Assembly (NCBI GenBank): GCA_006503475.1
Contig: RSEH01000232.1
Span: 1 to 64,000 of the forward strand
Reading direction: 5' to 3'
Source: Stentor roeselii
Lineage: Eukaryota > Ciliophora > Heterotrichea > Heterotrichida > Stentoridae
Length of the DNA stretch: 64,000 nucleotides
A program made the position numbers and the translations under genes. Under the pieces are notes generated by a model. That model was not told where the DNA came from and made no database searches. It saw only the letters and a list, made by a program, of their open reading frames with translations. Below, in pieces: positions 5,332 through 54,113 of this stretch. Numbering within the stretch: position 1 is the stretch's first letter; every line of letters starts with the position of its first letter.

Positions 5332-5937
5332 TCATCTAGTGAAAGCAAGACTAATCAGATACAAAACAATGAGAACAGCAATAATCTGCTTCCAGTTCTT
5401 TTTGTTTTCTTGATAAGGAATATTTTCAGTTGTTTTTTCTGGTTCATGATAAGCGAATTTTTCTAAGAACTTCAAATGGTCTTCAAAGATTGAAGTAAAA
5501 ACTGGATTTGACATGTTGAACTTCATGCTGTTCTTTGCTAGAGATACTTTTTGACCTCTTGTTGTTGTCTCGCAACCTGTGCTTCTTTCGTTGTCTTGCA
5601 TGAAGCTTATCAGTCCAGTGATTATTGTTCCGACATTCCAGATTGGTGTCCAGGACTCGGGGTGGAAGTCTGACATTGATGTGCAGATCTTTTGGTTTTG
5701 GATGAAACGGCCGTTGGGCGTGAACATCTTAATCGAAGGAGGACCCATCGGATAATTAAAAGGAAACAAAAGTTCCCCATGATAAACCCCTCCTTCAAAA
5801 GGTCCTTCCAGTCCATAAATCGCATAATGCCACCTAAGCCAATTCTTGGGATCAGGAACAGCAACAGCATTAGAAACCGGTTCCCTAACAATAGTCTGAT
5901 ACTCCTTCTGCAGTCTCGAAAGCGCTTCTCGACTCAT
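5332..5937 (-). CDS. UBE2J2: ER-anchored ubiquitin-conjugating enzyme, UBE2J2/Ubc6 type
   Basis: 201 aa. A UBC fold (about 1-155) carries the Ubc6-class signature: no HPN tripeptide, but TPNGRF (73-78) before the catalytic Cys85 in QKICTSMSDFHPESW. A C-terminal hydrophobic segment at about 183-198 is a tail anchor, so the enzyme should sit on the cytosolic face of the ER and serve ERAD. Length is short for UBE2J2 (about 259 aa) because the linker before the TM is reduced. It is divergently paired with the PP2C gene with 24 bases between start codons. Confidence 0.88.
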   Translation of the reverse strand: MSREALSRLQKEYQTIVREPVSNAVAVPDPKNWLRWHYAIYGLEGPFEGGVYHGELLFPFNYPMGPPSIKMFTPNGRFIQNQKICTSMSDFHPESWTPIWNVGTIITGLISFMQDNERSTGCETTTRGQKVSLAKNSMKFNMSNPVFTSIFEDHLKFLEKFAYHEPEKTTENIPYQENKKNWKQIIAVLIVLYLISLAFTR

Positions 5938-35013: not shown

Positions 35014-36399
35014 CTAAACATAATTCGACCTGACAGTCTGCCTTTCAATGACCTTATTATTCGAGAGATCATTAAGTGCGATGTACTGATTAACAGCAAG
35101 ATTAACCTGTCTCCTCATATCAGTCTCCAGTTCCCTTTTAGCGACATGTCGATAAACCATTAAAATCGCAATCAAAACTCCAAAAAACAGCAAAAGTCCA
35201 AAAACAACAGTAGTCGTGCTATACCCTCTAACAACACCTACTCCATTCTCCTTCTTACAAAACATCGGAACAAAGTTCTTCTGGTACCCAGCACAAATGC
35301 CAGTCAAAAGTGCAGAAGGTTCTAAATCCCCTCTAAACAAATAATGATTGATAAAAACAGCAGGATACTCATGAAGTCCATTATTCTTCCAAAACTCTAT
35401 TTCTCGATCCAATTCTTTATTAGCAGCTAAAGCCTCATCCTTTCCGTGAAAACTATCCTCATAACATTTTTCCACAGCATCCACATCAAAGCCCAATCCT
35501 TTCATCAACTCTTGTGAACATTTTCTATCATTAATCTTCAAACTGCAATTTTCACTAAACCTTTTCAAGAACAAGAAAAATTTTTCATAAGAAAAATCAT
35601 TTTTTTCCTCCTTTAAAATTTCTAATAAGCACTTTTGCCTCAAGTCCTCTTGAATAACATTTCTTCCAGAAAGTCCTCCATTAATCAAATCATCAGGGTC
35701 AGGGGCGCAGTACCTTCCGCCGCCGAGACAATTTTCTTCAGCTTTTGCGAAGCCGGAGTTTTTACAGGCCATGCATTGGATGATGACGAAGTGGATTTCA
35801 AGGTCGACTGTGAAGTGAGTGAGAAGTTGTCCGACGTCGTAGAAGACTTTCATGAAATCTTGACTTTGTTCATTTCCTGATGAAAGGACTAGAGAAAGAG
35901 AGATTTTTTCAGGAGTTTTTGGAAGCTCGAAGCCGAGTTTTAAGGTCACTGGTGTTAAAGAAAGGGCTTGCTTTAGACGATTGCCGTCTTCTTTGGAGAT
36001 CATCATTGCTGGGATGAAAAGATTCCCGCCCATGTGATTGTCGCGCATTACTATGTTTGAGATTCGCTCGTTTTCATTGGAATTTGAGATTAGTACGGAT
36101 TTTACACCGATGTCTTGAGCGTGTTTTACTTTTAAGGAATAGGAACAGTTTCCCCGGTCGAACATGAAGATGTAGTGGTCTGTCTCCATGTCGTTTGGGA
36201 GGAAGGAAAGAGGACTGCACCCGTCTTGGTCGATTGATGGGTACCAGAGCTGTCCGATTATTTTTGTGTTGTATGGAGGGTTTCCGAAATTTCCTAATGA
36301 ACTTTCTAAACCTTTTGGGTACTCATCAGCCAAGTCGCTGGGTGAAAGAATCTTAATCGAGGCCATACTCACAGCAAAGTTCACTAGAAAAAAAAACAT
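35014..36399 (-). CDS. Vacuolar sorting receptor (VSR/BP-80 family)
   Basis: 461 aa, type I membrane protein. A signal peptide (1-13, MFFFLVNFAVSMA) supports the chosen start. A PA domain covers about 15-160 (HYIFMFDRGNCSYSLKVKHA). The cysteine-rich central domain has the VSR hallmark YCAPDPDD (230-237) and NVIQEDLRQKCL. A TM helix is at 396-416, then a 45-residue cytosolic tail with YIAL (439-442), a Yxx-phi sorting signal like YMPL of plant VSRs. The EGF repeats of plant VSRs are missing. It should carry hydrolases from the Golgi to lysosomes, phagosomes or dense-core organelles. Its ATG is two bases after the stop of the upstream gene. Confidence 0.9.
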   Translation of the reverse strand: MFFFLVNFAVSMASIKILSPSDLADEYPKGLESSLGNFGNPPYNTKIIGQLWYPSIDQDGCSPLSFLPNDMETDHYIFMFDRGNCSYSLKVKHAQDIGVKSVLISNSNENERISNIVMRDNHMGGNLFIPAMMISKEDGNRLKQALSLTPVTLKLGFELPKTPEKISLSLVLSSGNEQSQDFMKVFYDVGQLLTHFTVDLEIHFVIIQCMACKNSGFAKAEENCLGGGRYCAPDPDDLINGGLSGRNVIQEDLRQKCLLEILKEEKNDFSYEKFFLFLKRFSENCSLKINDRKCSQELMKGLGFDVDAVEKCYEDSFHGKDEALAANKELDREIEFWKNNGLHEYPAVFINHYLFRGDLEPSALLTGICAGYQKNFVPMFCKKENGVGVVRGYSTTTVVFGLLLFFGVLIAILMVYRHVAKRELETDMRRQVNLAVNQYIALNDLSNNKVIERQTVRSNYV

Positions 36400-38179: not shown

Positions 38180-41095
38180 CTAATTAAAGTAAGGTGCCAA
38201 GTCCTGATCAGCTTTAGCCATCTCATAAAGAGCAGGATGATCAAAGTACTTACTAACGACAACATCTTCAGTGAGTCCTTTGCGATTTCTAGTCTTCACC
38301 ATAAAATCACGAGCAAGTGCCGGTGCAGGGCTGGGCTCGAGAGGTTTAAGTAAAATTTTCCTATCAAGTGGGTCTCCAGGTACTAAAGCCCAGTTATCAA
38401 AGACCCCAACCGAGAAGGCCATTCCACTTGTATAAGTCCTTAAATCAGTTTCAAATCCAAAGGAGTCTACAACTGGAACTGAAGCAAGCATAACATAAAA
38501 AGGACTTCCCGGCTTCGGCTGTTCTGACCTAACCTGCCCTCTTCTTCGCTGCAACAGGGTGTAAACGGCGGGTATGCAGTCTTTAGTGCATAGCACCTCA
38601 AAAAGATAGTAAGGCTCCATCAGACGTGGCGTGGCTAAAAGGAAACTTGAGTAACAAACTCTTCTAGTCACTGGAATCAACTGACCTGGAGCCTTGTAAA
38701 GTCCTTCTTTTGCTAAAGTCGCTTCAATCATGCGAAATTTCACTCCTCGCATCGGCTCGTCACAGAGAGGACCTTCTCGACAGGCCCATTGAAAACCTTG
38801 GACGATTGAGGACTTTGAGGAAAAAAGACCTGGGTCGACTTCGTAGGGAAGGATGTCGTTTATTAAAACGTTTGGACCGTTGTCTTCTGCTCCGAAGGCC
38901 CAAAGGTTCTGACTTGCTAATATGTCCCAGGAATAGTCTTGCTCTAGTTTTTCAGATAAATTTTTGTCGGTTATGATCAACTTGCCGCTTTGGATACTTG
39001 ATGCTAGTTCGGCTTCTAGCGGCTCAGCTATGAAGGATAGACGGTTCATACCGTTTGGAGTCTGGGAAAAAGCTTTGAAGGATGAGGTGTCGATCACTGT
39101 TTCTGTTAATATTACTGATGGGTCGGATAACTTTACCTCGATGTCTGAGTACAAATTTCTCAGGTCATGCAAAACACAATCCAGGTAAAGTTCACTTGTT
39201 CCAAATATCATATGTTCCCCAGTTTCATACATTTTCAAGTCTAACAACGGGTAACTTTTACAGCACTTTCTCAGCCCTTCTAACATTTTCGGCAAGTCAG
39301 AAGGATTGAGTGGTTCCAAAGCTAACTTAATGGGACTAATCGTTGGAAACTTAACTTGAAAAGGTTTAGAAAACATCGACGACAGAGCCTTCGGAAAAAA
39401 AGTAGAAAATTTCGAAGAGTACTGCCCAAGTCCCCCAATAAGAACCATATTTCCCGCAGGTATCGCATCAACTTTCACCTTATACCTGGTATTATAAATG
39501 AAAAGTTCAGGAATTCTAATCAAAAATCGATGTTCCGGGTCTTTTAACGAGAACTTTTCAGTGATCATCAAAAGTTCTTCATCTTTTTTCAAAGTTCCAG
39601 AAAAAACTCTTCCGAACAAGTAAAAATTTTCACAGTTGGCATCATGAAACTGTTTCGTGACATGAACAACAGTAGGTCCTTCCTTCCTTGCTTTTTTAAT
39701 TTCCTCAAAGTCCTGCCCGACATGATCTCCTAAAAACATCTGCTCAAATCTTTTACTTTCATGAGGAGAGCGAAAAAACTCTGAAGCGGCATCAACGAAT
39801 CCAGAAGGTTTTCCAAAAAACTTTCCACAAACGACTTTAAGTAAACTTTGGGTGTTAAAATCAAAAACATTTTTTTTCAAGTAAATTTTTAGTTCTTTTA
39901 AAACTTTTTCAAGTTCTGGTCTTTCTTCACTTACAGTGAAACTGATCAATTTATACAAAGGGACTAAGACAAATTCAACAAAAGTCCTGGTTCCAAGACT
40001 TTGACCTTCAACAGGTTTAGAAAAAAACCTTCTAGAAACCGAATCAAAATAAAAATTTCCCCAAAGTCTTTTATTTAATTGAAAAGGTTCAAAATTACCT
40101 CCAAAAGATTCACAGTACTTTTCCGCGATAGACATAGTTGAAAAAACGAACCCATAAAGTCCACTTGCGAATAAAACATTACCTAAAGTAGGAGAAAATT
40201 TAGGAACTTCAGGAAATGATTCAAGAATCGAGTTTACCTGATCTAAAGTGTGTTTTAATTTGAAGTAACTGTCTTGTGGAGGTAGTTTTAATTCAAGTAT
40301 AAGTCGGTCAAGTTTGTTTAAAACAAGGATGACTGGAAGGCCTTGGCTGAGAACATGACGCAAGATTTTCTCTGTTCCAAGCATCACACCTTCGACCACG
40401 TCAATCACAAGGAATACCCCGTCGACGAGGTTTAGAACACAACTTAACTCGTCGTGGAAACAAGGGTGGCCTGGTGTGTCGATTAAGTGGAATAACCAGC
40501 TCTTGTCTCTTTTGTCTGGAAGGATTAAGGATATTGGACTTGATTTTATGGAAATTTCACGACGCACCTCGTCTTTTCGGTGGTCTAGGTAACGTGCTGG
40601 TCTTTCTGGATTGCTTGGAAAGTTTTGGTGAGCTTGCTCGATTAGAAGGTCTGTGAGTAAAGTTTTTCCGTGGTGTAAGTGTCCCACAATAGCAACATTT
40701 CGAATCCTGGACTGGGAAGTCATCAAATCTGTCATATACTGAAACGGATACCAGCACTCAGGACTAGCATCTTCAAATTCGAAGGATTTTGTTGAGACTG
40801 GCTGAACAATAGGAACAGTGATTGGCTGCGCGTCTTCTTCCATAATCAAAGTTTCTGCACCAGGATAGACCTGATGCAATTCAGGGTAGTATCTTTTGTC
40901 TTCATGAAGAACGACTCCTAGATCAGGTTCCTATTTAAAAATCACGTCGATGTGGATTTGTAAAGCACTTGATGCAAGGTCTTTGTCTGAAAGTGAATCT
41001 TTAGACTCTTCTGAGTTTTCTGAACCTTCTGAGTCTTCTGACCCGGAACCTCTGCCTAAGTAATTCCCGAACTCGTCGAACAGGTCGTCGTCCAT
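38180..41095 (-). CDS. EFTUD2: U5 snRNP GTPase Snu114/EFTUD2, two exons
   Basis: Exon 1 (40946-41095) encodes MDDDLFDEFGNYLGRG and an acidic Ser/Glu stretch, as in human EFTUD2. A 15-nt intron joins it in phase 0 to exon 2 (38180-40930), which begins EPDLGVVLHEDKRYYPE, again matching human. Total 966 aa (human 972). P-loop GHLHHGKT (133-140), G3 DTPGH, G4 NKLDRLILELKLPP, then EF-G-like domains II-V, including GTSELYLDCVLHDLR and DSFGFETDLRTYTSG. It is the EF-2-like GTPase that controls spliceosome activation through Brr2. It must itself be spliced to be made. Confidence 0.96.
40931..40945 (-). other. 15-nt spliceosomal intron (phase 0)
   Basis: Minus-strand sequence GTGATTTTTAAATAG: GT-AG, with A at positions 10 and 11, containing an in-frame TAG at its 3' end. 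Homology on both sides to EFTUD2 makes this the best-supported intron in the window. Confidence 0.95.
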
Positions 41096-48910: not shown

Positions 48911-50248
48911 ATGAGAGAAATTATTCACGTGCAGTGTGGCAACTGTGGCAATCAAATCGGGACCAAGTTCTGGGAAGTTATTTCTGATGAGCATGGTATT
49001 GACCCTACTGGAACCTACTATGGCCAGTCTGATCTTCAACTAGAGAGAATTAATGTTTATTTTAATGAATTTTCCAGCGGTCGATATGCGCCTAGAGCGA
49101 TTCTTATGGACTTGGAACCTGGAACTATGGACTTTGTAAGGGCAGGACCTTTAGGAAGGCTTTTTCGACCTGAAAATTTTGTATTTGGACCTAATTGTGG
49201 GGCAGGTAATAACTGGGCTATTGGTCATTATACTGATGGGGCTGAATATATAGATTCAGTTTTAGACTCTATTAGAAATGAAGCAGAAAACTGTGATTTT
49301 CTCCAAGGTTTCCAATTATGCCATAGTTTAGGAGGTGGAACTGGCTCTGGAACTGGAACTCTTCTTATTGAAAAAGCACTCGAAGAATACCCAGAAAAAA
49401 TTATAGAAACTTTCTCTGTTTTCCCTTCTTCGAAGGTTTCTGATACTATTGTAGAACCCTATAATGCTATTCTTTCAGTTGATAAACTTATTGAAAACTC
49501 ACATGAAGTAATGATTATAGATAATGAAGCACTTTTTCAAATTTGCTCTAGGAATTTATTAGATACCACTCAGACATATCATAATTTCAACAATATAGCC
49601 AGTGAAGTGATGAGCGGAATAACTTGTTCTTTCAGATTTCCCAGTCAAATCAACTCAGATCTGCGAAAACTATCAGTAAATCTCATCCCATTTCCCAGAA
49701 TGAAATTTTTAATGATCGGCTATGCACCTTTAAGTGCAAGAAGTAGTTTTCCATATCGACCTTTAACCGTGTCTAAGCTAACAAAGCAAATGTTTGACGG
49801 CAGAAACATGATGTGCGCCTCTGACCCTAAAAACGGAAAATTTTTCACTGCTGCTGCTGTGTTCAGAGGAAAGATCTCGAATTTTGAAGTAGATGAGCAA
49901 ATGTATAATGCTAAAGACCTGAATTCCAATTCCTTTATTGAGTGGATTCCTTATAATATTAAGAGCTCTGTCTGTGAAATTCCACCGAAGGGGCTGAAAA
50001 TGAGTGCTACTTTAATTGGAAATTCTACTGCTATTCAAGAAATGTTCAGAAGAGTTACTGAAAAGTTTAGTGCCATGTTTTTGAGAAAATCATTTCTTCA
50101 GTACTACCTGAAAGAAGGAATGTGTGAAATGGAGTTCACTGAAGCTGAGAGCAACATGAAAGATCTTATTAGTGAGTACCAGCAATACCAAGATTCAGTA
50201 GATAATAAAGAAAATAACTTTGACAATCAAACAGAAGAAATCTATTAA
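48911..50248 (+). CDS. Divergent beta-tubulin, second copy type
   Basis: 445 aa. [17 protein letters not shown] start, [23 protein letters not shown] and [11 protein letters not shown] are intact. It differs from the canonical copy by a one-residue insertion ([10 protein letters not shown] against FGQSGAGNN), altered [16 protein letters not shown], and a C-terminal tail ([15 protein letters not shown]) that is far less acidic and lacks EGEF. GTP binding should be kept, but motor binding and tail modifications such as glycylation and glutamylation would be limited. Ciliates do use divergent beta-tubulins; its site of use cannot be read here. Confidence 0.95.
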
Positions 50249-50771: not shown

Positions 50772-53700
50772 CTAAGGAGCAGCTTGCAATTTCTTAAACT
50801 CTTCAATAGCCGCCATAAGAGCAACATTAGAAACTAAATCCGCTTCAGTGATAGTCTCTCCAGTCTTGGGTTCCTTTCCAGTAGTCTGAACAACATTGAA
50901 GATTTCATTCCTTTCATAAGAATTATTGCTTTTAATGACTAAAACAGGGTCATTCATGATTTTTCCAGTGATTCCACACAAGAACTGAGGAGGTAGTTGA
51001 TTTTTCTTCTCATTAAGAATTTCCTGCAAGGTTTTACTTGCATGATGAGCAGTAAACTCAGTTGCGTTCTTGACGAACTGTTCATAGTCCATTCGGTACT
51101 CAGTGGCGATGTAAGCATCGAGGGGGTCCAAAGGTTCAGGTGTTAAAAGAAGTCCGAATATGCATTCTAAGACTCTTTTTAAGGTAAGTGCAGGACTCCA
51201 TTGGTCTTTTAGGATTGCATGGCAAATACTTCCGTTTTTATTGATGTTGCAGTGATAAATAGGAGTCACGAATCTTACCTTTGGAGGCTTGAATGGGTAG
51301 TCGCTTGGTAGTTCGATGTATAGATGAAATGTGCCTTGCTCATAAGGAGTAGTATCAGGTCCAGTCATATAAACATTCCAAAACATGATATCATCCTCCG
51401 TCGGAAACACAGAACAATTCGGATGCGGGTTCTGCTCCAAGTCACTTAATTCTTTCATGACTCTTTTCAAAGCTCCACCCGATGCTTTAGACTTCGGATT
51501 ACTTTTCGCATTAGATATCGCTGATGATATACTAACAGCCTTCGCCATAGTTTGACTTGGAACTGCTGCTTCTGATGGTTTTGAATCATTTGTATTTCGA
51601 CTTAAAAGAGGAATTAGGTCTGACTCGGTATTCACTAAAACTCTTGTTGGAACTTGACGTGAACGCACTGATAAAAATGTTTCTGATTCGAAAAGCTTTA
51701 CACCTTCTGGAATCGTCTTCGGCATGAAGACGAAACCGCCTGAGGCGAATGAAGCGGCTTTGAGTTGCTGGGAAAGAGCACCTACTACTATTGAGTCCAT
51801 TATTATGTTGCTTGATACGAGGTCTTTTGAGATTTGGGTGTAGTTTTTTCCGGAACTTGTGTCTTCTCCATCACTAAGACATAAAATCCTCAAATGAACA
51901 TTCGGATAAGTAGCCTTAAACGAGTTCAAATACCCAATTCCCTGATCAATAGCATCCCAAAGGCGAGTACCTCCTCCATGATGTGCATTTTGAACATGAC
52001 TAGAAAAAGTGACAATATTTTCAGTAAACCCACAAGCTCTATTAATACTCGAACTGAAAAGAATCAAAGAAATAACATGATTAAAATCAAATCCCGCATT
52101 TCTATCAGTAAAAGTTTCAAAAAACTCTTTCGTGGCATCAAGCCTGGTAAAATCAACTTCATCAAAGAATTTCGTTCCCATTGATCCAGAGATATCAAAA
52201 ACGACGACAATTGCTTCATCAGGGTTCCTAGTAATGACCTCCTGCCCCACTTGACTCGGGTTTTTCATTTCAATGGCACTTGCAAGGTTATCAATATCAA
52301 TAGTCGTGATTTGTCTGTTCAAGATATTCATGAGTTCCACTTTATTCGGTTCTTTATTCGACAAGTCAAAATAAATAACCAAGTCGTTATTTTTATCAAG
52401 AGTCATACAGTCCTTAAAGTCCTTATTTTTTAATGACAGGGGAGGAATAGGCTTCGTGATTTTATAAGCCCTTCGTAGTTCTAAAGCCTTTGCAAGGGTC
52501 ACTCCTGTTGAATGCTTTTCAGCTACTAACTGACCGACAGACTTAGTAGTATCAAAAACGCCTTCCCAGACATAAAGCTCACTGACGTTCGCATTTTTTC
52601 CTCTTTGAACGATGACCTTGAAGTTTTCATCTACTTTTAACTCAGTTTCTTTAGGTTTCCCGACATTTGCGATTTCTTCATCATTTCTGATCTTTTTAAG
52701 CACTTCTTCTTTCTCATAGTATAAAACTTTTCCGTCAGTCCTGCGGAGCAGGACTGGTTCTTCCAAAGGCTTAAGGGTCAATGGGCAGTCGATGTTGTAT
52801 TCTTTGAAGACTTCTCCTCGGCTTAGCTCTTCTTGAGGGTTGCAGCTTAAATCACATAAGAGGGCGAAGCACTCAATGACCTGTTCTAATAATTTCCCTT
52901 CTTCTATTGGAGCATGTTTGAAGACTTCAGTAAGAATCGTCTTGCTTAGTTGAATTGACCCTTCTTCTAACGCTATTGATGAAAGAAGACTTAAAGGCTT
53001 TTGTTTGGTCAGCAGGTAAAGTGCAGTTAAAAAAGGTGTATTGTTGAATGAAAACTGCCTGATGTAGCCTAAGAAAGACTCTCGAATAGGTTTTTCACTG
53101 ATTTCTCCATGTTTACTGAAAGTGTGTAAAAATGAGTGAAGTGCTCGAAGACCTTCAGAAGACTGAGAAATCGATTGTTTTGAATGAACTTTATAAGAAA
53201 AAGCCGAGTAATAAACTTCAATTTTTTCAAAGGTGATCGAAGAAGTGCTAGTAACGCTGTATTCAGACAAAAGCTTCTGATTCTGTGACATGAAAGTATC
53301 TGGAAGTTTTAAAGACAGTTGGTAAGTAGGAATATCAGTGAAATGATAAAGATTCTGCTTTAAAGTCTCAACAGTCGCTGTTGCCAAGTCGACTTTAAAG
53401 CAATAAGACACGTTAGGGTCTTCCTTGCTGATGACCGTCAAAGTATCAACTCCACTCGGAAGCAGTTTAGGTTTCGACTTGACATCAAAGTCAGGAACTA
53501 TAAAAACATTAACTCGGTCTCCAAATCTTACAACCGAACTCGCTTTAACAAATAACATCTGCGAAAGACTTTCAGTGAGAGGTGTTCCATCTTCAGAGTA
53601 AAACGCGCAGACCCATTCAGATTCAGAAAGATTTTCTTTTTTCACTATAAGTGCCGAAAGTTCTGCCATTGTCAAGTCGAGACTGTCAATCAAAAGAACT

Positions 53701-54113
53701 TGGAAGACGGAAGGTTTTGAACTGTTTAAGTATCTGTAAAGAACTTTTGAGACTTCTTCAACTTCAACTTTTAAAGGCTCTGATTTTATTTCTAAAGATT
53801 TTAGTTCTTCTGATACCGTCTGATTCAAACTTGAAACAACGTCCCAGTCCTCGAAAGGCTCGGAAAACTCGACTTTTAACTCAAGTTCGTCGAGGTTTTG
53901 ACTCAGGGACTTTGAGATTAGGGAAAGGTAAGAATCGTTGTCGCTTATTTTGAACCAGGAACCTTTTCGGTTGAAGAGGACTGAAATGCAGGAGTCGGAT
54001 TTTTGACTTGATGATGAAATTTTAGATATTAGGTCGGAGAGAGACCCTGGGGAGACTTGGAATAGAGAAGGAAACCCTGGGATTTCGATGAGAAGGTCGA
54101 TCTTTTTTTCCAT
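50772..54113 (-). CDS. Ubiquitin-pathway fusion: PB1/UBL-like regions, vWA, E2 (UBC) and U-box in one 1113-aa protein
   Basis: In order: PB1-like region 1-85 (FNRKGSWFKISDNDSYLSL); UBL-like regions about 120-208 and 224-300; a U-box-like half motif at 443-475 (CPLTLKPLEEPVLLR); vWA 633-820 with a complete MIDAS (DISGSMG 640-646, Thr716, Asp748); an E2 fold 880-1035 (FHLYIELPSDYPFKPPKVRF) with HCN (954-956) in place of HPN and catalytic Cys964 in GSIC, then WSPALTLKRVL; and a U-box 1041-1113 (FLCGITGKIMNDPVLV, SYERNEIF). It could carry ubiquitin on its own E2 and discharge it through its own E3 domain, the vWA giving substrate choice. Intact throughout; no intron needed. Confidence 0.9.
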   Translation of the reverse strand: MEKKIDLLIEIPGFPSLFQVSPGSLSDLISKISSSSQKSDSCISVLFNRKGSWFKISDNDSYLSLISKSLSQNLDELELKVEFSEPFEDWDVVSSLNQTVSEELKSLEIKSEPLKVEVEEVSKVLYRYLNSSKPSVFQVLLIDSLDLTMAELSALIVKKENLSESEWVCAFYSEDGTPLTESLSQMLFVKASSVVRFGDRVNVFIVPDFDVKSKPKLLPSGVDTLTVISKEDPNVSYCFKVDLATATVETLKQNLYHFTDIPTYQLSLKLPDTFMSQNQKLLSEYSVTSTSSITFEKIEVYYSAFSYKVHSKQSISQSSEGLRALHSFLHTFSKHGEISEKPIRESFLGYIRQFSFNNTPFLTALYLLTKQKPLSLLSSIALEEGSIQLSKTILTEVFKHAPIEEGKLLEQVIECFALLCDLSCNPQEELSRGEVFKEYNIDCPLTLKPLEEPVLLRRTDGKVLYYEKEEVLKKIRNDEEIANVGKPKETELKVDENFKVIVQRGKNANVSELYVWEGVFDTTKSVGQLVAEKHSTGVTLAKALELRRAYKITKPIPPLSLKNKDFKDCMTLDKNNDLVIYFDLSNKEPNKVELMNILNRQITTIDIDNLASAIEMKNPSQVGQEVITRNPDEAIVVVFDISGSMGTKFFDEVDFTRLDATKEFFETFTDRNAGFDFNHVISLILFSSSINRACGFTENIVTFSSHVQNAHHGGGTRLWDAIDQGIGYLNSFKATYPNVHLRILCLSDGEDTSSGKNYTQISKDLVSSNIIMDSIVVGALSQQLKAASFASGGFVFMPKTIPEGVKLFESETFLSVRSRQVPTRVLVNTESDLIPLLSRNTNDSKPSEAAVPSQTMAKAVSISSAISNAKSNPKSKASGGALKRVMKELSDLEQNPHPNCSVFPTEDDIMFWNVYMTGPDTTPYEQGTFHLYIELPSDYPFKPPKVRFVTPIYHCNINKNGSICHAILKDQWSPALTLKRVLECIFGLLLTPEPLDPLDAYIATEYRMDYEQFVKNATEFTAHHASKTLQEILNEKKNQLPPQFLCGITGKIMNDPVLVIKSNNSYERNEIFNVVQTTGKEPKTGETITEADLVSNVALMAAIEEFKKLQAAP

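Follow-up and report, generated by a model that had tools for sequence, protein, structure and literature searches.

A single-frame gene joining vWA, E2 and U-box domains in Stentor roeselii

The locus and its surroundings

The window analysed here is a stretch of 64,000 nucleotides from Stentor roeselii. Positions 50772-54113 of its minus strand contain a single frame of 1113 amino acids that runs from ATG to TAG with no intron evident, in agreement with the one uninterrupted ORF described in a previous sequence-only reading of this DNA. Pfam assigned three domains to the protein, each exceeding its curated cut-off: VWA at residues 635-780 (E 7.6e-9), UQ_con at 884-1020 (E 9.6e-45, model positions 1-139 of 140) and U-box at 1041-1108 (E 7.1e-10, model positions 2-69 of 73). 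The sequence-only reading had named the same three domains, with Cys964 as the catalytic residue of the UBC domain, an intact MIDAS in the vWA domain and HCN in place of HPN with its Asn kept, and had pointed to a Pfam search; the domain calls are borne out by these scores, and Cys964, HCN (954-956), D640/S642/S644, T716 and D748 were all verified in the DNA translation. The E2 lies inside a long chain (884-1020 of 1113 aa) rather than forming a short stand-alone E2, and 20 residues separate the end of its match from the start of the U-box match (∼5 more in the paralogs described below). The features, all on the minus strand, are as follows.

50772-54113, minus strand: whole gene, 1113-aa vWA-E2-U-box protein (frame and Pfam)
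53235-53414, minus strand: weak ubiquitin-like match, aa 234-293 (below cut-off, one of four family members)
52689-52799, minus strand: degenerate half U-box or MIZ-like motif, aa 439-475 (below cut-off, absent from the N-terminal pieces of three paralogs)
51774-52211, minus strand: vWA domain, aa 635-780 (Pfam)
52182-52196, minus strand: MIDAS motif 1, DISGS, aa 640-644 (sequence and family alignment)
51966-51968, minus strand: MIDAS motif 2, Thr716 (family alignment)
51870-51872, minus strand: MIDAS motif 3, Asp748 (family alignment)
51054-51464, minus strand: E2 (UBC) domain, UBE2D-like, aa 884-1020 (Pfam and PDB profile matches)
51246-51254, minus strand: HCN, a variant of HPN with the Asn kept, aa 954-956 (read from DNA)
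51222-51224, minus strand: Cys964, predicted thioester cysteine (family alignment)
51126-51128, minus strand: Asp996, invariant in the family; its counterpart in the closest solved E2 is the Asp of Ser-Asp-Pro-Leu (alignment)
50994-51053, minus strand: end of the E2 and short linker to the U-box, aa 1021-1040 (sequence)
50790-50993, minus strand: C-terminal U-box, aa 1041-1108 (Pfam and PDB matches)

The fused gene is adjoined by a frame in the opposite direction (48911-50248, plus strand), by eye a divergent beta-tubulin ending in ...EEIY, while a neighbouring 195-aa frame had no Pfam match at E up to 0.01. Elsewhere in the window, a protein with PA and vacuolar sorting receptor thioredoxin-like domains is encoded at 35014-36399 (minus strand), and a second, small E2-like frame lies at 5332-5937 (minus strand; UQ_con E 1.6e-14). 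Between 56000 and 64000 the G+C content falls to 24-26%, and three long frames there are without a Pfam match.

Passages of published reports describe introns of 15-16 nt and the standard genetic code in Stentor (PMC9505925), and equally small introns with UGA read as Trp in Blepharisma (PMC9942806). All 7 Trp codons of the 1113-aa protein are TGG, and L012 ends in TGA. The stops of the 37 window frames of at least 180 codons, not all of which need be genes, are TGA in 4, TAA in 22 and TAG in 11, TGA being the rare one. Together with the very short introns, these data point to a heterotrich that uses the standard code, probably one like Stentor. A frame-joining intron scan of the window gave no candidate at the first threshold and two of 15 nt at a looser one, with up to three each at other intron lengths, so that the scan alone is weak; the spacings of GT..TAG show a slight excess at 15 nt, which is no evidence by itself. 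The inference of 15-nt introns is based instead on two genes in which the protein sequence shows the gap, both read by eye: the E2 gene in L019, in which GTAAGCTATAAGTAG intervenes at the point where the rest of the E2 is expected, and an EFTUD2-like U5 snRNP GTPase gene in the window (38180-41095, minus strand), with the intron GTGATTTTTAAATAG at 40945-40931.

A gene family in the same genome

The genome (44.4 Mb, 522 contigs) was searched with the 1113-aa protein. Three further genes were found, on contigs C207, C112 and C507, each a single open frame of 1049-1105 aa from stop to stop and 1048-1070 aa counted from the first Met. The order vWA-E2-U-box is common to all four full-length members, and a U-box was matched by Pfam in every one of them; the single-chain architecture proposed from the window gene thus recurs in three open paralogs. 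Identity to the window protein is 28-30% end to end and 37-39% over the E2/U-box part. A fifth copy, on C124, is in two pieces and is without ∼450 N-terminal residues (7 kb examined). Given these three paralogs and the truncated copy, the window gene is not a chance fusion. The E2 part of the C124 copy (L048, C124:1000-8000) contains an insertion of 75 nt flanked by two CAAGG copies; this insertion is not an intron of the 15-nt kind, and upstream there is a further E2 fragment in a more advanced state of decay.

Alignment of the four full-length members revealed that the E2 residues Cys964, Asn956, Asp996, Lys883, Arg884, Phe948 and Pro974 are invariant, as are the metal-site residues D640, S642, S644, T716 and D748 (D-x-S-G-S, T, D). 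The dN/dS ratio between L011 and the C124 copy was 0.18 for a piece of 419 codons and 0.08 for the E2/U-box piece, which spans 194 codons. The four other pairs are at or near silent-site saturation (dS infinite in three; dN/dS 0.22 at dS 2.39 in one), so selection is measured from one pair alone, including one truncated copy (C124). Between L011 and C124, selection has been purifying.

Profile searches of the genome gave, as lower bounds, at least 19 U-box, at least 59 UBC and at least 34 VWA_2 matches, the window's own vWA being missing from the VWA_2 list. Seven contigs carry both U-box and UBC matches (C152, C207, C112, C507, C124, C89 and C495), and the first five of these hold the vWA-E2-U-box family. 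C495 was rejected as a further fusion, its U-box and UBC lying ∼62 kb apart. On C89 the two matches are ∼1.5 kb apart in different frames, with a vWA match on the opposite strand, and because frames and strands differ they were taken as separate genes. Among the genome matches listed, no gene outside the family, whether in a single frame or in pieces, combined a U-box with a UBC. Pfam analysis of nine long E2 or U-box frames identified two as Ufd2/UBE4-type, one as a CCCH zinc finger with half a U-box and six as E2 only, without U-box or vWA. Likewise, 12 of the at least 34 VWA_2 loci, represented by one frame each (three run off the locus end), yielded no phmmer match to the fused proteins. 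A 932-aa frame in L041 (C466) carries two E2-domain stretches in one chain.

The weaker calls of the sequence-only reading concern the N-terminal part of the window protein. The UBL/PB1-like N terminus was not confirmed: the ubiquitin-like match (residues 234-293) does not reach its cut-off (E 0.017 for the whole chain and 0.0067 for the N-terminal piece) and appears in one of the four members, and PB1 had no Pfam match at E up to 1. A CIDE-N match, also below cut-off, was obtained near the start of two of the four N-terminal pieces (E 0.1 and 0.014) and in one of the four whole chains. CIDE-N is a ubiquitin-like fold, and these weak matches leave room for an N terminus that may be ubiquitin-like. 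The U-box-like half motif proposed earlier (439-475) fell short as well, its zf-Nse match staying under the cut-off (E 0.021 for the N-terminal piece); no zf-Nse match was found in the N-terminal pieces of the other three members, and the paralogs do not share its Cys. Searched as whole chains, all four members gave a zf-Nse match, which in the paralogs we take to come from the C-terminal U-box. As a guess, the half U-box may be what is left of an earlier U-box that preceded the vWA domain. A profile of the first ∼625 residues had no match in the PDB up to an E of 1.

E2 and U-box, and what the fused chain might do

When the PDB was searched with the family profile, UBE2D chains were the top matches (among the best 60 of 353 listed); with the window E2 alone, 4gpr and 2ayv (general E2 names) came first, followed by UBE2D chains. 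In a tree of 20 E2s (4 fused and 16 free), the fused E2s lie on one side of one branch with support 91/84, a branch present in 90% of 200 bootstrap trees, placement being otherwise open. This tree takes in 16 of the genome's free E2s and leaves out the C124 piece, same-place duplicates and hits that are short, intron-split or off-strand (L017, L019, L023, L031, L032, L033, L034 and L035). The window E2 is 51% identical to L014, a free UBE2D-like E2, versus 39-43% to its fused sisters, and the three sisters share a long branch, so that the window copy looks like the least changed member.

The surroundings of the active site depart from the canonical pattern. The equivalent of HPN is HCN in the window and HIN, HLN and HLN in the paralogs, the Asn being kept in all four and the Pro in none. 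After the Cys, the closest solved E2 has Leu-Asp, the window protein His-Ala and the paralogs Ile-Ser. The H-x-N Asn helps in the transfer to lysine, as do acidic residues close to the Cys; the loss of the HPN Pro and of the Leu-Asp that follows the Cys therefore makes the chemistry of this E2 uncertain. Around the E3-facing loop, the window E2 keeps DQWSPALT, as in the closest solved E2, whereas W-S-P-A is lost in the three paralogs (YAPE, YGPE and YSPE). Lys883, Arg884, Phe948 and Pro974 align with UBE2D positions that face the E3.

As a single sequence, the window U-box had the U-box of a bacterial effector as its two best PDB matches; PRP19, plant U-box proteins and CHIP came next. Its profile score of 44 bits is the lowest among the five U-boxes of the family, the others having 55-62. 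The U-box residues kept in all four full-length members include P1041, L1045-C1046, K1051-I-M, P1056-V and Y1066-E. Structure prediction from single sequence gave a mean pLDDT of 34.0 for residues 864-1113 and 33.2 for the whole chain, and yielded no usable model.

The reading we favour, with a probability of roughly 60%, is that the protein is a natural E2-E3 hybrid whose U-box would activate an E2 domain, either that of the same chain or that of a sister chain, and whose vWA domain would recruit the substrate. E1 would load ubiquitin onto Cys964 of the UBE2D-like domain, the short-linked U-box would bind the E2 of its own chain or of a dimer partner and hold the charged E2 active, the metal site of the vWA domain would hold a substrate or complex partner, and ubiquitin would then be passed to the substrate. 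The N-terminal 620 residues could be a further recruiting or regulatory region. We count in favour of the hybrid the Pfam scores of the three domains, the domain order shared by all four members with their invariant E2 and metal-site residues, the UBE2D chains at the top of the PDB matches, the DQWSPALT kept by the window E2, the invariance of the four E3-facing residues, the grouping of the fused E2s (91/84), the low dN/dS and the existence of engineered UBE2D-E3 fusions; against it we count the changes in HPN and after the Cys, the loss of W-S-P-A in the paralogs, the weak window U-box and the restriction of the dN/dS measurement to one pair. On this balance a self-contained E2-E3 is plausible. 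A stronger version of the hybrid, possible though doubtful, would be a lineage-specific machine needing only E1, ubiquitin and ATP, in which the U-box activates the neighbouring E2 in cis and a metal-gated vWA domain presents the substrate; its active site (HxN, no Leu-Asp after the Cys) might have been reshaped because it always has its E3 at hand, or to accommodate an unusual acceptor.

The main rival, which we consider unlikely, is that the protein acts as a U-box E3 with free UBE2D, its built-in E2 being poor or dead and kept as a ubiquitin-binding or self-regulating module. The altered active-site residues in all four members and the loss of W-S-P-A in three would suit such a module, and the genome retains in L014 a free UBE2D-like E2 with canonical HPN. 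However, every full-length copy has both the catalytic Cys and the H-x-N Asn, and dN/dS over the E2/U-box piece is low in the one measurable pair. The departures from the canonical residues in H-x-N and next to the Cys could also indicate an E2 that conjugates another ubiquitin-like modifier or transfers it to an acceptor other than lysine, the U-box acting as its cis activator. This we hold to be improbable, given that UBE2D chains are among the closest PDB matches and that the window E2 shares about half of its residues with L014.

It is very improbable that the frame is an artefact of gene reading or assembly joining separate genes. The frame is read from genomic DNA, and the genome has 15-nt introns, of which a frame-keeping one could be missed. 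Against this, one frame extends from ATG to stop, the order recurs on three other contigs within single frames (1049-1105 aa, stop to stop), and the three 15/16-nt GT..TAG candidates in the gene miss, by eye, the five-residue gaps of the family alignment, though introns with other 3' ends may exist.

Comparison with known systems

E2s and RING/U-box E3s are normally separate proteins, and one E2 serves many E3s. A natural E2-U-box chain would trade this sharing for a fixed pair and would offer a ready-made test of an E3 activating an E2 at high local concentration. Structural biologists now approach E3-E2 activation with engineered fusions: as judged by name and match position, PDB entries 8v0d (UbcH5B-RING3(MIB1)), 8uq8 (RNF168-UBE2D3-H2B) and 4r8p (RING2-UBE2D3) hold a UBE2D and an E3 domain in one chain, as here, but are man-made constructs, unlike the window gene. 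From its name, length and match position, 8v0d places the E2 first, as the window gene does. No paper on the MIB1 RING3-UbcH5B fusion was found in open PMC text. The family would also represent a ubiquitin-system invention in Stentor-like ciliates, a lineage used for single-cell regeneration work.

Among the papers listed by searches of open PMC text, no title or opening of an abstract describes a triple fusion of E2, U-box and vWA, and in the available passages of a 2024 review of ubiquitin evolution (PMC11354881) the terms 'von Willebrand' and 'ciliate' do not occur. Automatic annotation may already list the architecture for ciliates. Two scans of viral contigs gave 32 and 23 pattern matches and one scan of bacterial and archaeal genomes gave 59, none confirmed by tblastn; these scans, from which records very near the Stentor genome may be missing, are uninformative on other protists.

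BIRC6 and UBE2O are E2/E3 hybrids and, like the window protein, large multidomain proteins with an E2 domain; to our knowledge they have neither U-box nor vWA. BIR and other accessory domains of BIRC6/UBE2O had no Pfam match in the 1113-aa protein at E up to 1. The domain content of the window protein suggests that it may have E2 and E3 activity in one chain. Plant vWA-RING E3s, such as RGLG1/2 and WAV3, join a vWA domain to an E2-binding domain, as here, but have a RING instead of a U-box and use an E2 that is a separate protein.

Closer in its pairing of domains is Mb_UBOXa of Monosiga, which was described in passages of a 2010 survey (PMC3087547) as an ancient gene with relatives in Naegleria, Trimastix and Spironucleus. 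Proteins of this type combine U-box and VWA in one protist protein, as here, so that this pairing alone is not new; in the passages concerned an E2 is not mentioned, unlike in the window protein, the comparison being by description only. A vestigial U-box before the vWA domain would, as a guess, fit descent from such published proteins. Multidomain E2s are called unusual in passages of a 2010 PARP survey (PMC2964712), which name BRUCE (BIRC6) and fungal PARP-UBCc proteins; the fungal clade 6A PARPs, with a C-terminal UBCc, resemble the window protein in fusing an E2 to other modules, but their partner is a PARP, and a U-box is not mentioned for them in those passages. To this short list of multidomain E2s the Stentor family adds a case, and it is a new form of multidomain E2/E3 protein rather than a new kind of system.
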